Source: Stigmatella ashevillena
Lineage (GTDB): Bacteria; Myxococcota; Myxococcia; Myxococcales; Myxococcaceae
NCBI RefSeq assembly: GCF_028368975.1
Contig: NZ_JAQNDM010000002.1
Coordinates: forward strand, 8,302,425-8,366,424
Direction: 5' to 3'
DNA: 64,000 nt
Shown here: positions 8,014-62,308 of the stretch, piece by piece
Layout: each line of letters begins with the position of its first letter
Numbering within the stretch: the stretch's first letter is position 1
The notes under the pieces: model-generated
The model's database searches: none
Seen by the model: the letters and a program-made list of their open reading frames with translations, nothing else
What the model was told of the DNA's origin: nothing
Translations under genes and position numbers: made by a program

Positions 8014-9069
<1,056 letters not shown>

Positions 9070-9071
9070 GC

Positions 9072-9701
9072 ATGACCGTGACCCGGGAGGCCGTGGAGCA
9101 GTGGATCCGGGCGTATGCGGACGCCATCGCCGAGCACGAGCAGGCCCTCACCCAGCTCGACATGGCGATTGGGGATGGTGACCACGGCGCGAACATGCAG
9201 CGGGGGTTCCAGGCCGTGCTCTCGCGCATGTCCAGCGTGGCGGAAGGCGACGTGGGGGCCCTGTTCAGGATGGTCGGCATGACGCTGCTGTCCACCGTGG
9301 GGGGGACCAGTGGCCCGCTCTACGGCACGCTGTTCCTTCAGATGGCCTTGCAGACGCAAGGCAAACGCGAGCTGAAGCCCGAGGAGCTGGAAGCCGCGCT
9401 GCGGGCGGGGTTGGACGGCATTATCGCTCGTGGGAAGGCGTCTCCTGGAGACAAGACGATGATCGACGCGCTGAAGCCCGCTCACGATGCCTTGCGGCAG
9501 GCGCTGCACCAGAAGGCCAGTCTGGGGGAGGCCTTGCGCCGGGCGGAGGAGGCTGCCAGGGCAGGCCGCGATGCCACCATCGCCCTGGTGGCGAGGAAGG
9601 GGCGGGCCAGCTACCTGGGGGAGCGCAGTGCGGGCCACCAGGACCCGGGGGCCACCTCGGCCCATCTGTTGATGGAGTGTGCCGCAAGGACTTGGATGTG
9701 A
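9072..9701 (+). CDS. dhaL: Dihydroxyacetone kinase ADP-binding subunit DhaL
   Basis: 209 residues, normal DhaL length. The Mg-ADP site is seen in LDMAIGDGDHGANM (about 30-43), followed by the conserved STVGGTSGPLYGT and GDKTMIDAL motifs. In the PTS-type enzyme, DhaL keeps a tightly bound ADP that is rephosphorylated by DhaM and then transfers phosphate to DhaK-bound dihydroxyacetone. The C-terminal RKGRASYLGERSAGHQDPGA is the typical end of the family. The ATG is two bases after the dhaK stop, and the TGA overlaps the GTG of dhaM. Confidence 0.95.
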   Translation: MTVTREAVEQWIRAYADAIAEHEQALTQLDMAIGDGDHGANMQRGFQAVLSRMSSVAEGDVGALFRMVGMTLLSTVGGTSGPLYGTLFLQMALQTQGKRELKPEELEAALRAGLDGIIARGKASPGDKTMIDALKPAHDALRQALHQKASLGEALRRAEEAARAGRDATIALVARKGRASYLGERSAGHQDPGATSAHLLMECAARTWM

Positions 9702-48531: not shown

Positions 48532-51971
<3,440 letters not shown>

Positions 51972-51975
<4 letters not shown>

Positions 51976-53438
51976 CGTTTGCTGGACGGAGCCGGTGGGG
52001 CCGAGACCTCTGCCGGGCGGCGTGCCAGCAGCTCACCGAGGGTCTGCTCATACGCCGCCGCGAGCCTCAGCACCTCCAGATCTGCCTGGGGTCGGCCAAT
52101 CAATTGCACACCCATGGGGAGACCCTGCGCATTGAAGCCCACCGGTACGTTCATCGCAGGCAGTCCCCCCAGCGTGGCGTAGATGGAGACCTCCATCCAC
52201 CGGTGGTAGGTGTCCATGGGCCGGCCATTCACGGACTTCGGCCAATGGATGTTGGCATCGAAGGGCCATACCTGGGCGGTGGGGAGCGCCAGGAAGTCAT
52301 GGTGCTCGAAGAGCGTGAGGAGGTGCTGGTAGAAGGCGCTTCGGGCCACGCTGGCGGCATAGACTTCGCTCCCAGACAGGTTCATTCCCTTCTGGGCCTC
52401 CCACTGCGCTTCTGGTTTCAGCCGTGCCCACAGGCTGGGATCCGCGTGAAAGGGGGACAGGTTGCCTGCCACCAGCCAGCTTCTCCAGACCAGCCAGGTG
52501 TCCCAGACCTTCTCCGGAGAAAACCCCAGGGGGATGGGCTCGACGGCGCAGCCCAGGGTCTCCAGTCTCCTCAATCCCTGCTCACAGAGCTCGAGGATGC
52601 CTGGCTCCATGGCGAGGTATCCCCGAAGGTCTCCCAGCCATGCAATGCGTTGACCTGCCACGTTCGGGTCGAGGGGCTTGTCGAAAGCGGAGCCGTCCTG
52701 GCCGATGGAGAGCGGGGCGCGCGCGTCCCACCCTGCCTGGGTTCCCAGCAGGAGTGCCACGTCGCGCACGCTGCGCCCCATGGGCCCCTCGATTCCCAAC
52801 TGGGCGACATAGAGATCCTGCGCCGGAGCGTAGGGGACGCGTCCCTGGGAGGGCCGAAATCCAAAGACATTGTTATAGGCGGCGGGATTGCGCAGCGACC
52901 CCATCATGTCGCTGCCGTCGGCCACCGGGAGCATGCGCTGCGCGAGGGCCACCGCGGAGCCTCCGCTGGAGCCTCCCGCGCAGAGCGCGGCATTCCAGGC
53001 GTTCCGGGTGATGCCGAAGACCGTGTTGTAGGTTTGCGAGCCAAGCCCAAATTCGGGCGTATTGGTCTTGCCGATGATGAGGGCACCCGCGCCCTTCATC
53101 CGCTCCACCATGACGCAATCGCGAGAGGGGACATTCGCGCTCATTAGGGGCGAGCCCATCGTGGTGCGGATTCCCCGGGTGGCGCTGAGGTCCTTGATGG
53201 CTTGCGGAATGCCATGCATCCAGCCCATGGACTCGCCGCGTGAGAGCTGGGCATCCCGCTCGTCCGCTTGCCGCAAGAGGCCGTCTGGGTCCTGGAGGCT
53301 GACAATGGCGTTGAAGGTTGGGTTGACCGCGGCGATCCGCTTCAGAAAGGCTTGCATCACTTCACGGCAGGAGATCTGCCGTTGATGGATCAGCTGGGAA
53401 AGCTCGTGGGCCAAGAGTTCGGTCGGCTGGGTTTGCAT
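51972..53438 (-). CDS. Amidase-signature family hydrolase
   Basis: 488 residues. The Ser-cisSer-Lys triad is Lys82 (PQAIKDLSATRG), Ser157 in GGSSGGSA and Ser181 in GSDMMGSLR; the 24-residue spacing of the two serines equals that in FAAH. The enzyme hydrolyses linear amides; the specific one is not known. It converges on the WD40 kinase with overlapping stops (51972-51975) and lies 47 bp downstream of the sigma-54 activator on the same strand, so it may belong to that transcript. Confidence 0.9.
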
Positions 53439-53485
53439 GGCAGGGTTCCGATGGGCTTGGGGGGCGAGAGTGGCGAAGGAGTCAC

Positions 53486-55384
53486 TTACGAGAGGCCGTG
53501 TCGGCCGAGCATCCGGTAGAGCGTGCTCCGTGCGACGCCGAGACGCCGCGCAGCCTCGCTGAGGTTCCCATTCGCGGCGGCCATGGCGTCCTTCAGCGCG
53601 CGGGCCTCCGCGGCCTTCCTGCTGCCGCCCTCGCTCACGGCCGCGGTGCTGGAGGGCGCCGGGACATCGTCAGGCAGGTGTTCGGGGGCCAGTGGCTCGC
53701 CTTCCCCCGCGAGCACGAGGGCGTGGGCCAGCGCGGACTTCAATTCACGCACGTTGCCCGGCCAGGGATGCGCCTCGATGAGCCGCTCGGTCCCGGGCGT
53801 CATCGGCGGCGCCGCGCAGCCTTGTTCCCGGGAGAGCTTCTCCACCAATGCGCGCGCCAGCTCGATCTTGTCTGTTCTCTGGCGAAGGGGAGGCAAGGAG
53901 ACCCCTGCGCCGCGAATCCGGTAGTAGAGATCGCGCCTGAACTTTCCCGCCTCCACCATCGCGGGGAGGTCGCGGCAGGTGGCGCTGATGAGCCGGAACC
54001 GAGACTCCCTCGGCCTTGTCTCGCCGAGCCGGAAGTAATGCCCATCATCCAGTACCCGGAGCAGGAGCGCCTGAAGCGGCTCGGGCATCTCGCCGATCTC
54101 GTCCAGGAACAGCGTTCCACCATCGGCCGCGCCCAGCTTGCCCTTGCTTCCGGCGGCGAGCGCACCGGTGAAGGCGCCTGGTGCGTATCCGAACAGCTCG
54201 GACTCGAGCAGACCCGCGGGCATGGCGCCGCAATTGAGCGCGAGGAAGGGGCCGGAGGCGTTGCCACTCGCCTCGTGGATGGCGCGTGCGAGCAATTCCT
54301 TGCCGGTACCCGTCTCGGCAAGGAGCAGGACCGGCAGCGGACTCCGGGCCACCCGGGCTGCCCGCTGCTTCGCGTCCTGGAGCGCCGGATCGCTCCCGAT
54401 GAGCGCGTCGAACGAGTCCGGCAGGGGGCCTGCCGCGCGCGCTCGGGGCGCATCCCGCTCGATGAAGACGGCGAGCGCCAGGGGACGCCCGCGCATGTCG
54501 AAGTGCGGCACGGGGTGAAGGCGCATGCCAGACAGACGGCACGCCCTGTTGCTCAGCGCCACCTCCACGAGCGCATTCCAGGACAGCGAGAGGATGTCCT
54601 CGACGGACCGCCCCATTATGGCAGAGGGCGCATGGCCGAGCTTCGCCGCCGCATCCGCGCTTACCTGGCGGATCACCCCGGGCGCCTCGACCAGGAGGGA
54701 GGCGGAGCCGGCGAGCCGGGCTTCGAGACTCCGGCTGCCCCCCACGAGCATCTGCTCATAGTATCGCAGCCGGAGGGACTGCTCGGCGGCATGCGCGGAC
54801 GCAAGCACGAGCGCCTCGAGCAGGGGATTGGCCTGAGCGACGGCGCCGCTCACGTCCAGCACGGCGACGAGGTCGCCAAACGGATCGCGGATGGGCGCCG
54901 CATAGCAGACGAGGCCGTGGTTGCGCTCCTCGAGGTGCGCGCGCCCGACCACCGTCACCGGCTCGCCCTCGGCGATCGCGGTGCCAATGGCGTTCGTGCC
55001 GCGCGTGCTCTCCGCCCAGCAGGCGCCTTCCACCAACTGGGAGGTGTACGCCATGCGGAGCGACGCGCCAATGCCGCCTCCGGCGATCACCACGACGCCC
55101 TCGGCATCGGTGAGGACCGCGCGAAACTCTGCGGCGCTCGTCTCGGTCACGAGCCGCGACACGAGCTGGACCGCATCGACGCACCGGTCTGTCAGGGACT
55201 CGCGCCGGGAACGGAGCTCGGCGTCGGTGACCCCTGCGGAGTGCGCGGGCCCGTCCGCCTTGGCTCCCAGCGCCACCGCACGGGACCAGCGGTGGAAGAT
55301 GGAATGGGCGCACTCCTCCGTTTCGACGGCCCCCGAGACAAAACGCTCCCAGACGTGTGGCCCTGGCTCGATCAGCTTGAGCAT
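53486..55384 (-). CDS. AcoR-type sigma-54-dependent activator
   Basis: 632 residues from ATG at 55384 (GGGGAGAG upstream). A GAF-like sensor region (about 70-200, VVVIAGGGIGASLRMAYTS, GTNAIGTAIAEGEPVTVVG) and a PAS-like section (about 225-320) precede the AAA+ domain with AETGTGKE, GAFTGA and LFLDEIGEM, and an HTH_8 (NLSEAARRLGVARSTLYRML). The layout is that of AcoR/AdhR regulators of acetoin and alcohol catabolism. It is divergent from an alcohol dehydrogenase with a sigma-54 promoter between them, which is the expected target. Confidence 0.93.
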   Translation of the reverse strand: MLKLIEPGPHVWERFVSGAVETEECAHSIFHRWSRAVALGAKADGPAHSAGVTDAELRSRRESLTDRCVDAVQLVSRLVTETSAAEFRAVLTDAEGVVVIAGGGIGASLRMAYTSQLVEGACWAESTRGTNAIGTAIAEGEPVTVVGRAHLEERNHGLVCYAAPIRDPFGDLVAVLDVSGAVAQANPLLEALVLASAHAAEQSLRLRYYEQMLVGGSRSLEARLAGSASLLVEAPGVIRQVSADAAAKLGHAPSAIMGRSVEDILSLSWNALVEVALSNRACRLSGMRLHPVPHFDMRGRPLALAVFIERDAPRARAAGPLPDSFDALIGSDPALQDAKQRAARVARSPLPVLLLAETGTGKELLARAIHEASGNASGPFLALNCGAMPAGLLESELFGYAPGAFTGALAAGSKGKLGAADGGTLFLDEIGEMPEPLQALLLRVLDDGHYFRLGETRPRESRFRLISATCRDLPAMVEAGKFRRDLYYRIRGAGVSLPPLRQRTDKIELARALVEKLSREQGCAAPPMTPGTERLIEAHPWPGNVRELKSALAHALVLAGEGEPLAPEHLPDDVPAPSSTAAVSEGGSRKAAEARALKDAMAAANGNLSEAARRLGVARSTLYRMLGRHGLS

Positions 55385-55442
55385 CCCCGTTCTCTCCCCT
55401 CTGAGTGCGTCGCCAGCGCCCGCTTCGACGCGGCGAATTCTG

Positions 55443-55466
55443 GTGCAAGCCGTCCGGCGATTGCAC
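55443..55466. promoter_or_regulatory. Inverted repeat, candidate activator site 1
   Basis: GTGCAA (55443-55448) and TTGCAC (55461-55466) separated by 12 bases, about 160 bases upstream of the predicted alcohol dehydrogenase start site. The distance suits an enhancer for the sigma-54 activator. Dyads of this length also occur by chance. Confidence 0.4.
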
Positions 55467-55488
55467 GCAGGCCTCAATCCCTTTTCCG

Positions 55489-55503
55489 TGACGTCTCGCG
55501 TCA
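55489..55503. promoter_or_regulatory. Inverted repeat, candidate activator site 2
   Basis: TGACG-TCTCG-CGTCA, a perfect 5-bp dyad with a 5-base spacer, about 110 bases upstream of the predicted start site; a weaker dyad (CTCGCGA/TCGTGAG) lies at 55554-55571. Confidence 0.4.
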
Positions 55504-55583
55504 TGTTGCGAAACGCTGCACCTGTCTCGCTGGGATGACCGCTTCCGTGCCAGCTCGCGACACCTCGTGAGAGCGGAAAGGCA

Positions 55584-55600
55584 CGGCACGCACGCTGCAA
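55584..55600 (+). promoter_or_regulatory. Sigma-54 (-24/-12) promoter of the alcohol dehydrogenase
   Basis: CGGCACGCACGCTGCAA fits TGGCACG-N4-TTGCA closely: GG at 55585-55586, exactly ten bases, GC at 55597-55598. Predicted transcription start is about 55610, leaving a leader of about 65 bases to the adh ATG. The divergent gene encodes a sigma-54 activator, which supports it. Confidence 0.75.
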
Positions 55601-55674
55601 TGGGGGGCGCCGGGTTCGCCCGTCCCGTTCAGGTTCCGCTCCAGCACCAGACACCCACACAAGGAGAAGTTGGG

Positions 55675-56703
55675 ATGAACAAAACCATGAAGGCCGCTGT
55701 CGTGCGTGAGTTTGGCAAGCCGCTGCGAATCGAGGAGGTGGAAGTGCCGCGTCCCGGGCGTGGCGACATCCTGGTGAAGATCCAGGCCTGCGGCGTCTGC
55801 CATACCGATCTGCATGCCGCCGAGGGCGACTGGCCGGTCAAACCCAATCCGCCGTTCATTCCCGGCCATGAAGGCGTTGGTTACGTGGTGGCGGTCGGGG
55901 AAGGTGTCACCCACGTCAAGGAGGGCGACCGTGTCGGTGTTCCCTGGCTGTACGCCGCCTGCGGTTATTGCGAGCACTGTCTGGGCGGCTGGGAGACCCT
56001 GTGCGAGCAGCAAAAGAACACGGGCTACTCGATCAACGGAGGGTTCGCCGAATACGCGCTGGCCCATGCCGATTACGTCGGCCACCTGCCGGAGGGAGTC
56101 GGCTTCGCCGAGATCGCGCCCGTGCTGTGCGCTGGCGTGACCGTCTACAAGGGCCTGAAGGTCACCGATACCCGGCCTGGCGATTGGGTGGTGATCTCCG
56201 GGGTCGGCGGGCTGGGCCACATGGCGGTGCAATACGCCCGGGCCATGGGGCTGAATGTGGCCGCGGTGGACGTGGACGACGGCAAGTTGCAACTGGCCCG
56301 GCGGCTCGGCGCCACGGTGACCGTCAATGCCCTCTCGACCGAGCCTGCGGCCTACCTCAAGAAGGAGATCGGCGGGGCCCACGGGGTGCTGGTCACCGCG
56401 GTGTCTCCCAAGGCCTTCGAACAGGCGCTCGGCATGGTCCGCCGGGGGGGCACGGTGTCGCTCAACGGGCTGCCCCCGGGTGACTTTCCGCTGCCCATCT
56501 TCGGCATGGTGCTCAACGGCATCACCGTGCGCGGCTCGATCGTCGGTACCCGTCTGGACCTCAAGGAGGCCTTGGCCTTCGCCGCGCAGGGCAAGGTCAA
56601 GGCGACCGTGAGCACCGACACGCTGGAGAACATCAACGAGGTGTTCTCACGCATGCACGCGGGCAAGATCGAAGGCCGCGTGGTGCTGGATTTCGCCACC
56701 TGA
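55675..56703 (+). CDS. adhP: Zinc-dependent alcohol dehydrogenase, AdhP type
   Basis: 342 residues from ATG at 55675, AAGGAG eight bases away. Catalytic zinc ligands are Cys in ACGVCHTD and His in GHEGVG; structural zinc Cys cluster is [15 protein letters not shown]. The Rossmann site is [15 protein letters not shown] with Asp (AAVDVDDGK) for NAD. Closely matches bacterial AdhP/AdhA propanol-preferring enzymes that oxidise ethanol or short alcohols to aldehydes. Codon usage includes more weakly biased third positions than most neighbours, which could reflect gene transfer; this is a visual impression. Probably sigma-54 and activator dependent. Confidence 0.92.
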
Positions 56704-60619: not shown

Positions 60620-62308
60620 CTACTTGCCCTTGACCTGCTCCTTGGCCCACGAGTCCTTCAACGTCACCGTGCGGTTGAAGACGGGCTTGCCGGGCTGAGA
60701 GTCCTTCGAGTCCACGTTGAAGTATCCCAGCCGTTCGAACTGGAAGAAGGCCTCGGGGGTTGCCTGGGCGAGCATCGGCTCGACGCGGGCGTTGGGGAGC
60801 ACCTCGAGCGAGCTCGGGTTCAAGAACGTCTTGAAGTCCTTGTCCTTGTCGCGGTCCGGGTGCTCCACGGAGAAGAGCCGGTCATAGAGCCGCACCTCGG
60901 CCACGGGCGCGCTGGCCGGTACCCAGTGCAGGGTGCCCTTGACCTTGCGGCCATCCGGCGAGTCTCCGCCCCGGGTGGCCGGATCATAGCTGCACCGCAG
61001 CTCCACCACCTGGCCCTTGTCGTCCTTGACGACGCGCTCGCACTTGATGAAGTACGCCGAGCGGAGGCGAACCTCCTTGCCGGGCGCCAGCCGGAAGAAC
61101 CCCTTGGTGGGCTCCTCCATGAAGTCATCCGCCTCGATGTACAGCTCGCGCTCGAACCGGAGCATGCGCTTGCCCAGCTCTTCCTTGAGCGGGTGGTTGG
61201 CGGTTTCCAACTCCTCGCTTTGGCCCGCGGGATAGTTCTCGATGACGACCTTGAGGGGCCGCAGCACCGCCATGGCCCGGGGGGCGCGCTCGTTGAGATC
61301 CTCCCGGATGCACAGCTCCAGCAGGCTCATGTCGATCCAGCTGTCCGTCTTGCTCACGCCGATGCGCGTGGCGAAGTCTCGCAGGGAGGCCGAGGTGCAG
61401 CCCCGCCGGCGCAGGCCGCTGATGGTCATCATGCGCGGGTCGTCCCACCCGGACACCAGCCCCTCGGTCACCATCTGGAGCAGCTTGCGCTTGCTCATCA
61501 CCGTGTAGGTGAGCTTCAGGCGCGCGAACTCGTACTGGTGCGGCCGGCTCCCCTGGATGAGGCTGTCGACGATCCAGTCGTAGAGCACCCTCCGGTTCTC
61601 GAACTCCAGGGTACAGATGGAGTGGGTGATGCCCTCGATGGCATCCGACAGGCAGTGGGCGAAGTCGTAGAGCGGGTAGATGCACCACGTGTCGCCGGTG
61701 CGGTGGTGGTGCGCGTGGCGGATCCGGTAGATGGGCGGATCCCTCAGCACCGGGTTGGGCGATGCCATGTCGATCTTCGCCCGCAGGGTGTGCTTGCCAT
61801 CCGGGAACTCGCCGGCCCGCATGCGGCGGAACAGGTCCAGGTTCTCCTCGACGGAGCGGCTGCGGTACGGGCTGTCCCGGCCCGGCGTGTTGAAGTCACC
61901 GCGGTACTCGCTGATCTCATCGGCGGTGAGGCTGCACACGTACGCCTTGCCCTGCTGGATGAGCGAGACGGCGAAGCCATACAGCTTCTCGAAGTAGTCC
62001 GAGGCGAAGAACTTCCGGTCGTCCCAGTCGCCTCCGAGCCACTTCACGTCCCGCTCGATGGACTGGACGTAGTCGGTGTCCTCGGTGAGGGGGTTGGTGT
62101 CATCCAGGCGCAGGTTGCACTTGCCGCCGTATTGCTGGGCCAGTCCGAAGTTCAGGCAGATGGCCTTGGCGTGCCCGATATGAAGGTAGCCATTGGGTTC
62201 TGGGGGGAAGCGTGTGTGCACCCGCCCGCCGTGCTTTCCCGAGCGCCGGTCCTCCTCGATGATCTCCTGGAGGAAATTCTGGCCCTGCGCCTCACTGATC
62301 GTCGTCAT
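60620..62308 (-). CDS. glnS: Glutaminyl-tRNA synthetase
   Basis: 562 residues. HIGH motif HIGH at 43-46 ([20 protein letters not shown]) and the MSKRKL equivalent of KMSKS near residue 270. The anticodon-binding beta-barrels form the C-terminal half (about 340-555). It charges tRNA-Gln directly with glutamine. Its presence means the organism does not rely only on the transamidation route. The gene is monocistronic: own terminator and 149-bp spacer to the PilZ gene. Confidence 0.97.

Follow-up and report, generated by a model that had tools for sequence, protein, structure and literature searches.

The spacer between a sigma-54 dependent activator gene and adhP in Stigmatella ashevillena very probably represents, as judged by comparison with related genomes, an activator/aldehyde dehydrogenase (ALDH)/adhP module that is short of its ALDH gene, the -24/-12 promoter of which would now drive adhP directly. 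The locus lies in a window of 64,000 nucleotides (the whole stretch of DNA that was analysed), and its features are collected in Table 1. In five relatives the same divergent spacer stands in front of an ALDH gene encoding 509 aa, which is followed by adhP in four of them (all except G044), with 58 bases between the two genes where this gap was measured (G073–G075). Between the window promoter and adhP there is no ALDH gene; only a 33-base relic of it is left, and adhP stands, therefore, behind the former ALDH promoter. The sequence-only reading had described this region as a "complete" switch with adhP as its target. Activator, first dyad, -24/-12 element and adhP were all confirmed in the sequence, but in comparison with the relatives the set is incomplete, and adhP would have come to the front of an ALDH promoter through a deletion rather than being its original target.

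Table 1. Features of the activator–adhP locus (positions in the window)
Feature	Position	Strand	Details
Amidase	51972..53438	minus	PF01425; neighbour downstream of activator
Sigma-54 dependent activator	53486..55384	minus	632 aa; start codon at 55384
GAFTGA codons, sigma-54 contact loop	54161..54178	minus	activator residues 403-408
Dyad 1, TGACG-N5-CGTCA	55489..55503	plus	perfect 5-base arms in 6/6 aligned sequences
Proposed upstream activator site TGTTGCGAAACGCTGCA, pattern TGTYGCGRRACGCTSCA	55504..55520	plus	17 bases, adjoins dyad 1
Conserved GCGACA half-site, surviving part of proposed second dyad	55557..55562	plus	within invariant GCGACACC
-24/-12 sigma-54 promoter element CGGCACGCACGCTGCA	55584..55599	plus	sequence read, conservation, linked-locus test
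Relic of ALDH codons 11-22, no start codon	55608..55640	plus	ungapped alignment to ALDH of 5/5 relatives
Ribosome-binding-site-like AAGGAG of adhP	55661..55666	plus	read directly from sequence
adhP, zinc alcohol dehydrogenase	55675..56703	plus	342 aa

The activator has the composition of a bacterial enhancer-binding protein. Profile search registered the sigma-54 interaction AAA+ domain (PF00158, 201.6 bits), the AAA+ lid (PF25601) and a Fis-type helix-turn-helix DNA-binding domain (PF02954, 37 bits against a cut-off of 22), all of them above their cut-offs. GAFTGA, the loop contacting sigma-54, had been claimed for this protein; it is indeed present within the AAA+ domain and does not change throughout an alignment of seven activator sequences. 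The same role of this motif is stated in an excerpt of PMC6615313. The protein starts with MLKL, as do its relatives with 84–85% identity. In its N-terminal part, where the AcoR subgroup has a GAF-type sensor domain, PAS_4 was the sole Pfam match and fell below its cut-off, and the predicted structure (pLDDT 59.4) was too poor to be used. The activator may be assigned to the AcoR type by its domain order, GAFTGA and the activator–ALDH pairing rather than by direct comparison with an AcoR protein; ALDH adjoins the orthologous activator in 5/5 loci and is missing from this position in the window. The genome contains one match to the sigma-54 DNA-binding domain (rpoN-type) and 60 matches to the activator domain. 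Related activators are common in the order, a match at E<=1e-60 being present in 142 of its 145 genomes, while full-length relatives at the level of 84–85% were found in only five other genomes of the 145 searched (G047, G044, G073, G074 and G075). The closest match among loci of named organisms, from a Labilithrix MAG, is 45% identical.

The divergent spacer separating the activator from adhP is 290 bases long. The promoter sequence CGGCACGCACGCTGCAA begins at 55584 and is close to the -24/-12 consensus, with GG at 55585-55586 and GC at 55597-55598 separated by exactly ten bases, as had been read earlier. Given the usual distance from such elements, transcription is predicted to start near 55610. 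The consensus in itself is a modest argument for a promoter, and conservation is the stronger evidence. Its loose form (TGGCACG-N4-TTGCW with up to 3 mismatches) showed no enrichment in the window (80 matches versus a shuffle mean of 106). Sites that keep GG as well as GC and match the consensus at 10 or more of 12 bases occur five times on both strands of 64 kb, which gives about 0.01 expected in one strand of a 290-base spacer. The core of the element is invariant at 11/11 bases in six genomes versus 110/207 other spacer columns (121 of the 218 aligned window columns in total), and p values for such comparisons are merely a guide because the intervals were picked after the alignment had been viewed. 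The similarity to the five relatives (77–82%) ends at 55599–55602, directly past the -12 element. No sigma-70-like promoters were found in the spacer. Comparative genomics makes the promoter credible.

Further evidence was obtained from loci where related activators are linked to ALDH. The 300 bases preceding each ALDH gene were scanned for elements in which GG and GC are both present and no fewer than 9 of 12 bases match. A -24/-12 element was registered in all 31 activator-linked loci, namely in 5/5 close divergent ones, in 23/23 tandem activator–ALDH loci of another genus and in 3/3 distant divergent ones, as compared with 0/9 ALDH paralogues without this activator. The tandem set comprises 23 of 24 loci, L027 being omitted as it had no ALDH match in its stretch. 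Two control ALDH genes, L070 (G047) and L072 (G044), have a different sigma-54 activator nearby, the AAA+ part of which is 43% identical; despite this neighbourhood, no site with at least 9 of 12 bases was found upstream of them. The contig scan based on activator alignment yielded 80 loci, mostly with other activators. Among loci of named genomes with an adjacent ALDH of 67–78% identity, a site was present in three of four, belonging to Pseudomonas, Burkholderiaceae and Paraburkholderia (L083, L084, L095), and the same scan found none in the Labilithrix MAG (L081, adjacent ALDH of 78%); L092, which contains ALDH only partly, was left out of this count. Conservation and the linked-locus test together support the earlier proposal of a sigma-54 promoter with upstream activator sites placed between the GAFTGA activator and adhP.

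Two dyads had been proposed upstream of this promoter, and one of them stood. The arms of dyad 1 are perfect in all aligned sequences, and together with the neighbouring 17-base site it is invariant in 30 of 33 columns in six genomes. The second dyad had come without coordinates. Its best candidate, CTCGCGA-N4-TCGTGAG at 55554-55571, forms 6 of 7 pairs in the window, but in the five relatives just 3 to 5 of the 7 are formed, and it was rejected as a conserved dyad; what is kept of it is GCGACACC, invariant in 8/8 columns of the six genomes. The 17-base site has its sole exact match in the 10.95 Mb genome at its own place in the window and differs by one base from the relatives (TGTT versus TGTC). 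Since the pattern TGTYGCGRRACGCTSCA was drawn from the alignments, its 17/17 scores in the window and in 5/5 divergent loci hold by construction. Across the 23 tandem loci it scored 17 in three, 16 in two, 15 in two, 14 in five, 13 in nine and 12 in two, while controls and the three distant loci gave 11–13, and 5 of 820 shuffles reached 14 and none went higher. Twelve tandem loci score, therefore, at least 14, and with this pattern the other 11 do no better than shuffles. Half-sites TGTYGC/GCRACA were found upstream of ALDH in 31/31 activator-linked loci versus 1/9 controls. The arrangement TGT-N11-ACA occurs in 23/23 tandem loci and in 1.9% of shuffles; it was found in none of the five close divergent, three distant and nine control loci, nor in the window spacer. 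TGTCGC-like half-sites are, on these alignments, likely to be contacted by the activator, their exact layout varying between groups. A regulon extending beyond the locus was considered and rejected: 24 genomic matches to the 17-base site with no more than 2 mismatches were obtained versus 20 for the reversed pattern, and the single match with 1 mismatch was not accompanied, in the stretch and on the strand that were scanned, by a -24/-12 site with 9 or more of 12 bases.

The presumed loss of ALDH has left a recognizable trace. The relic aligns with the ALDH genes of all five relatives with scores of 36–41 versus shuffle maxima of 25–29 (against one relative it extends only over 55608-55638), and 0/300 dinucleotide-kept shuffles reached the score in each comparison. 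Against the native sequence that runs from -12 to the start of ALDH, the window leader scored only 10–15. Both results taken together mean that the start region and nearly all of the ALDH gene are gone, and at least two junctions are required. We infer that the relic is what a deletion in the window's lineage left behind. The closest ALDH remaining in the same genome is 77% identical and lies 38 kb away, at 8397125-8398645 of contig C2, with no recognizable -24/-12 element upstream.

The product of adhP matches the AdhP model NF006940 (375.9 bits at a cut-off of 344), and zinc alcohol dehydrogenases are the closest solved structures. Rough terminal-branch estimates, which also cover the period preceding the ALDH loss, gave dN of 0.049 at dS of 0.290 for the activator and 0.019 at 0.242 for adhP. 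Both reading frames are open, and taken with these estimates this suggests that the two genes are still in use. Within the set of adhP genes with at least 81% identity (G000, G047, G073, G074, G075, G077 and G121), a -24/-12 site not farther than 300 bases upstream was registered only for the window adhP. In the same-genus genome G077 adhP lies about 42 bases behind a kinase/WD40 gene (L053, 5560-5602) with no such site found within 300 bases, and possibly shares a transcript with the kinase. More distant adhP genes of 65–66% identity (L041 in G080 and L040 in G083) have -24/-12-like sites of their own, with 10 and 11 of 12 bases, and no relative of the window activator was found at E<=1e-8 in the 11 kb searched there.

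The surroundings of the locus point to an unstable history. Co-regulation of the amidase, suggested previously, was not borne out: the 300 bases in front of it yielded no -24/-12 site, the five orthologous-activator loci gave no amidase matches, and among 96 genomes of the family the whole gene is present (E<=1e-100) only in that of the window. A plasmid search with 51800-55500 returned no record covering 80% of the query, and the matches listed (ten places of 419 records) fell in or near the amidase part. The context of the site was followed in three of six same-genus genomes (G077–G079). G077 has adhP between the kinase gene and glnS; G078 (L182, G078:C1:2617000-2632000, about 9060-9400) has the kinase, followed by scars of amidase (26-base and 55-base pieces) and of adhP (its final 43 bases), with the lyase genes behind them; in G079 the interval from kinase to glnS showed nothing of the block. 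The scars mean that amidase and adhP were once present in G078, and for G077 and G079 a loss may be assumed. Window and G077 share 93.8% of nucleotides in the core ALDH versus 85.9% in adhP, and the window adhP is 87% identical to that of other genera, which does not agree with a simply vertical descent of the block. The window glnS (60620-62308) is 94–96% identical in G077–G079; identity is only 54% in G080–G082, which are labelled as the same genus and were left out of the context survey, and 65% in G075 and G047. Replacement by a different glnS is possible.

If the module has indeed been reduced to activator and adhP, the N-terminal half of the activator would sense alcohol, aldehyde or a metabolite of these, and the association with ALDH and AdhP favours an alcohol or aldehyde as the inducer class. 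The activator would then bind the block 55489-55562, some 50 to 120 bases ahead of the predicted start, and its AAA+ domain would open sigma-54 RNA polymerase at 55584-55599. As the first gene of the transcript adhP would have a leader of about 65 bases, and oxidation of the aldehyde produced by AdhP would fall to the ALDH paralogue situated 38 kb away. Several observations count against this reading: the shortness of the relic and the need for two junctions instead of a single clean deletion; to these are added the TGTT/TGTC change, the siteless L081, the non-vertical descent and the pre-loss time included in dN/dS. The promoter might instead be a fossil that after the ALDH loss provides no useful regulation, leaving adhP at a low constant level or unread. 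This is unlikely, even though the block looks unstable at the site (adhP alone in G077, scars alone in G078, no match in G079), since the -24/-12 core has not changed, the reading frames of both genes are open and apparently constrained on the window branch, and the spacer offered no sigma-70-like promoter.

Acetoin genes of other bacteria are known targets of AcoR-like activators, and the sequence-only reading had proposed acetoin as one of the inducers. For Clostridium, control of acoABCL by AcoR is listed in Table 1 of PMC6615313. Nevertheless, a strict AcoR acetoin regulator, with adhP acting in acetoin or butanediol metabolism, is an improbable reading of this locus, although the linkage of ALDH and adhP in relatives is a weak argument against it. 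Still harder to accept is that the -24/-12 match arose by chance in a spacer conserved for some other purpose: the missing enrichment of the loose consensus speaks for it, while the linked-locus test (31/31 versus 0/9) and the invariant core make it very improbable. The reduced module driving adhP may also be read in a narrower sense, as a promoter hand-over in which the first gene of a sigma-54 operon was deleted to within a few bases of -12 and the adhP-only switch is still selected. We regard this as a tentative and rather doubtful proposal. If it is true, an "alcohol to acid" switch became an "alcohol dehydrogenase only" switch, and aldehyde formation would be uncoupled from its removal or AdhP would work in reducing aldehydes.

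A sigma-54 activator and an aldehyde dehydrogenase linked to alcohol use are familiar from AldR and aldA of Azotobacter vinelandii. In Ralstonia solanacearum, according to PMC4676750, rpoN1 is required for growth on ethanol, and in strain GMI1000 the AcoR homologue Rsc3129 is predicted to control the ExaC acetaldehyde dehydrogenase Rsc3128. The switch in the window resembles this pair in the association of a sigma-54 activator with an aldehyde dehydrogenase (of adjoining locus number in R. solanacearum), and differs in that adhP replaces the lost ALDH as target. AdhR of Clostridium beijerinckii, as described in the excerpt of PMC7017808, binds three upstream sites and activates the alcohol dehydrogenase genes adhA1/adhA2 with sigma-54 (SigL) at a -24/-12 promoter, which was tested by mutants and gel shifts. 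Activator, upstream sites and an alcohol dehydrogenase target at a -24/-12 promoter are common to both systems, although C. beijerinckii is a solvent-producing anaerobe and the activator and site sequences differ. PMC6615313 assigns a TGT/ACA-type site to several activators, AdhR among them, and a different site to AcoR; unlike the AdhR type, the window site reads TGT-N11-GCA. Judged by titles or abstract beginnings, the locus is not described in the literature searched. It appears to be a variant of the known AcoR/ExaC and AdhR kind, that is, an ordinary switch in an unusual reduced form. As such it would provide a testable case of sigma-54 control over alcohol metabolism, including a candidate site for the activator that is conserved, and a natural experiment on the fate of regulation after an operon has lost its first gene; a seemingly complete switch can be the remnant of a larger arrangement.
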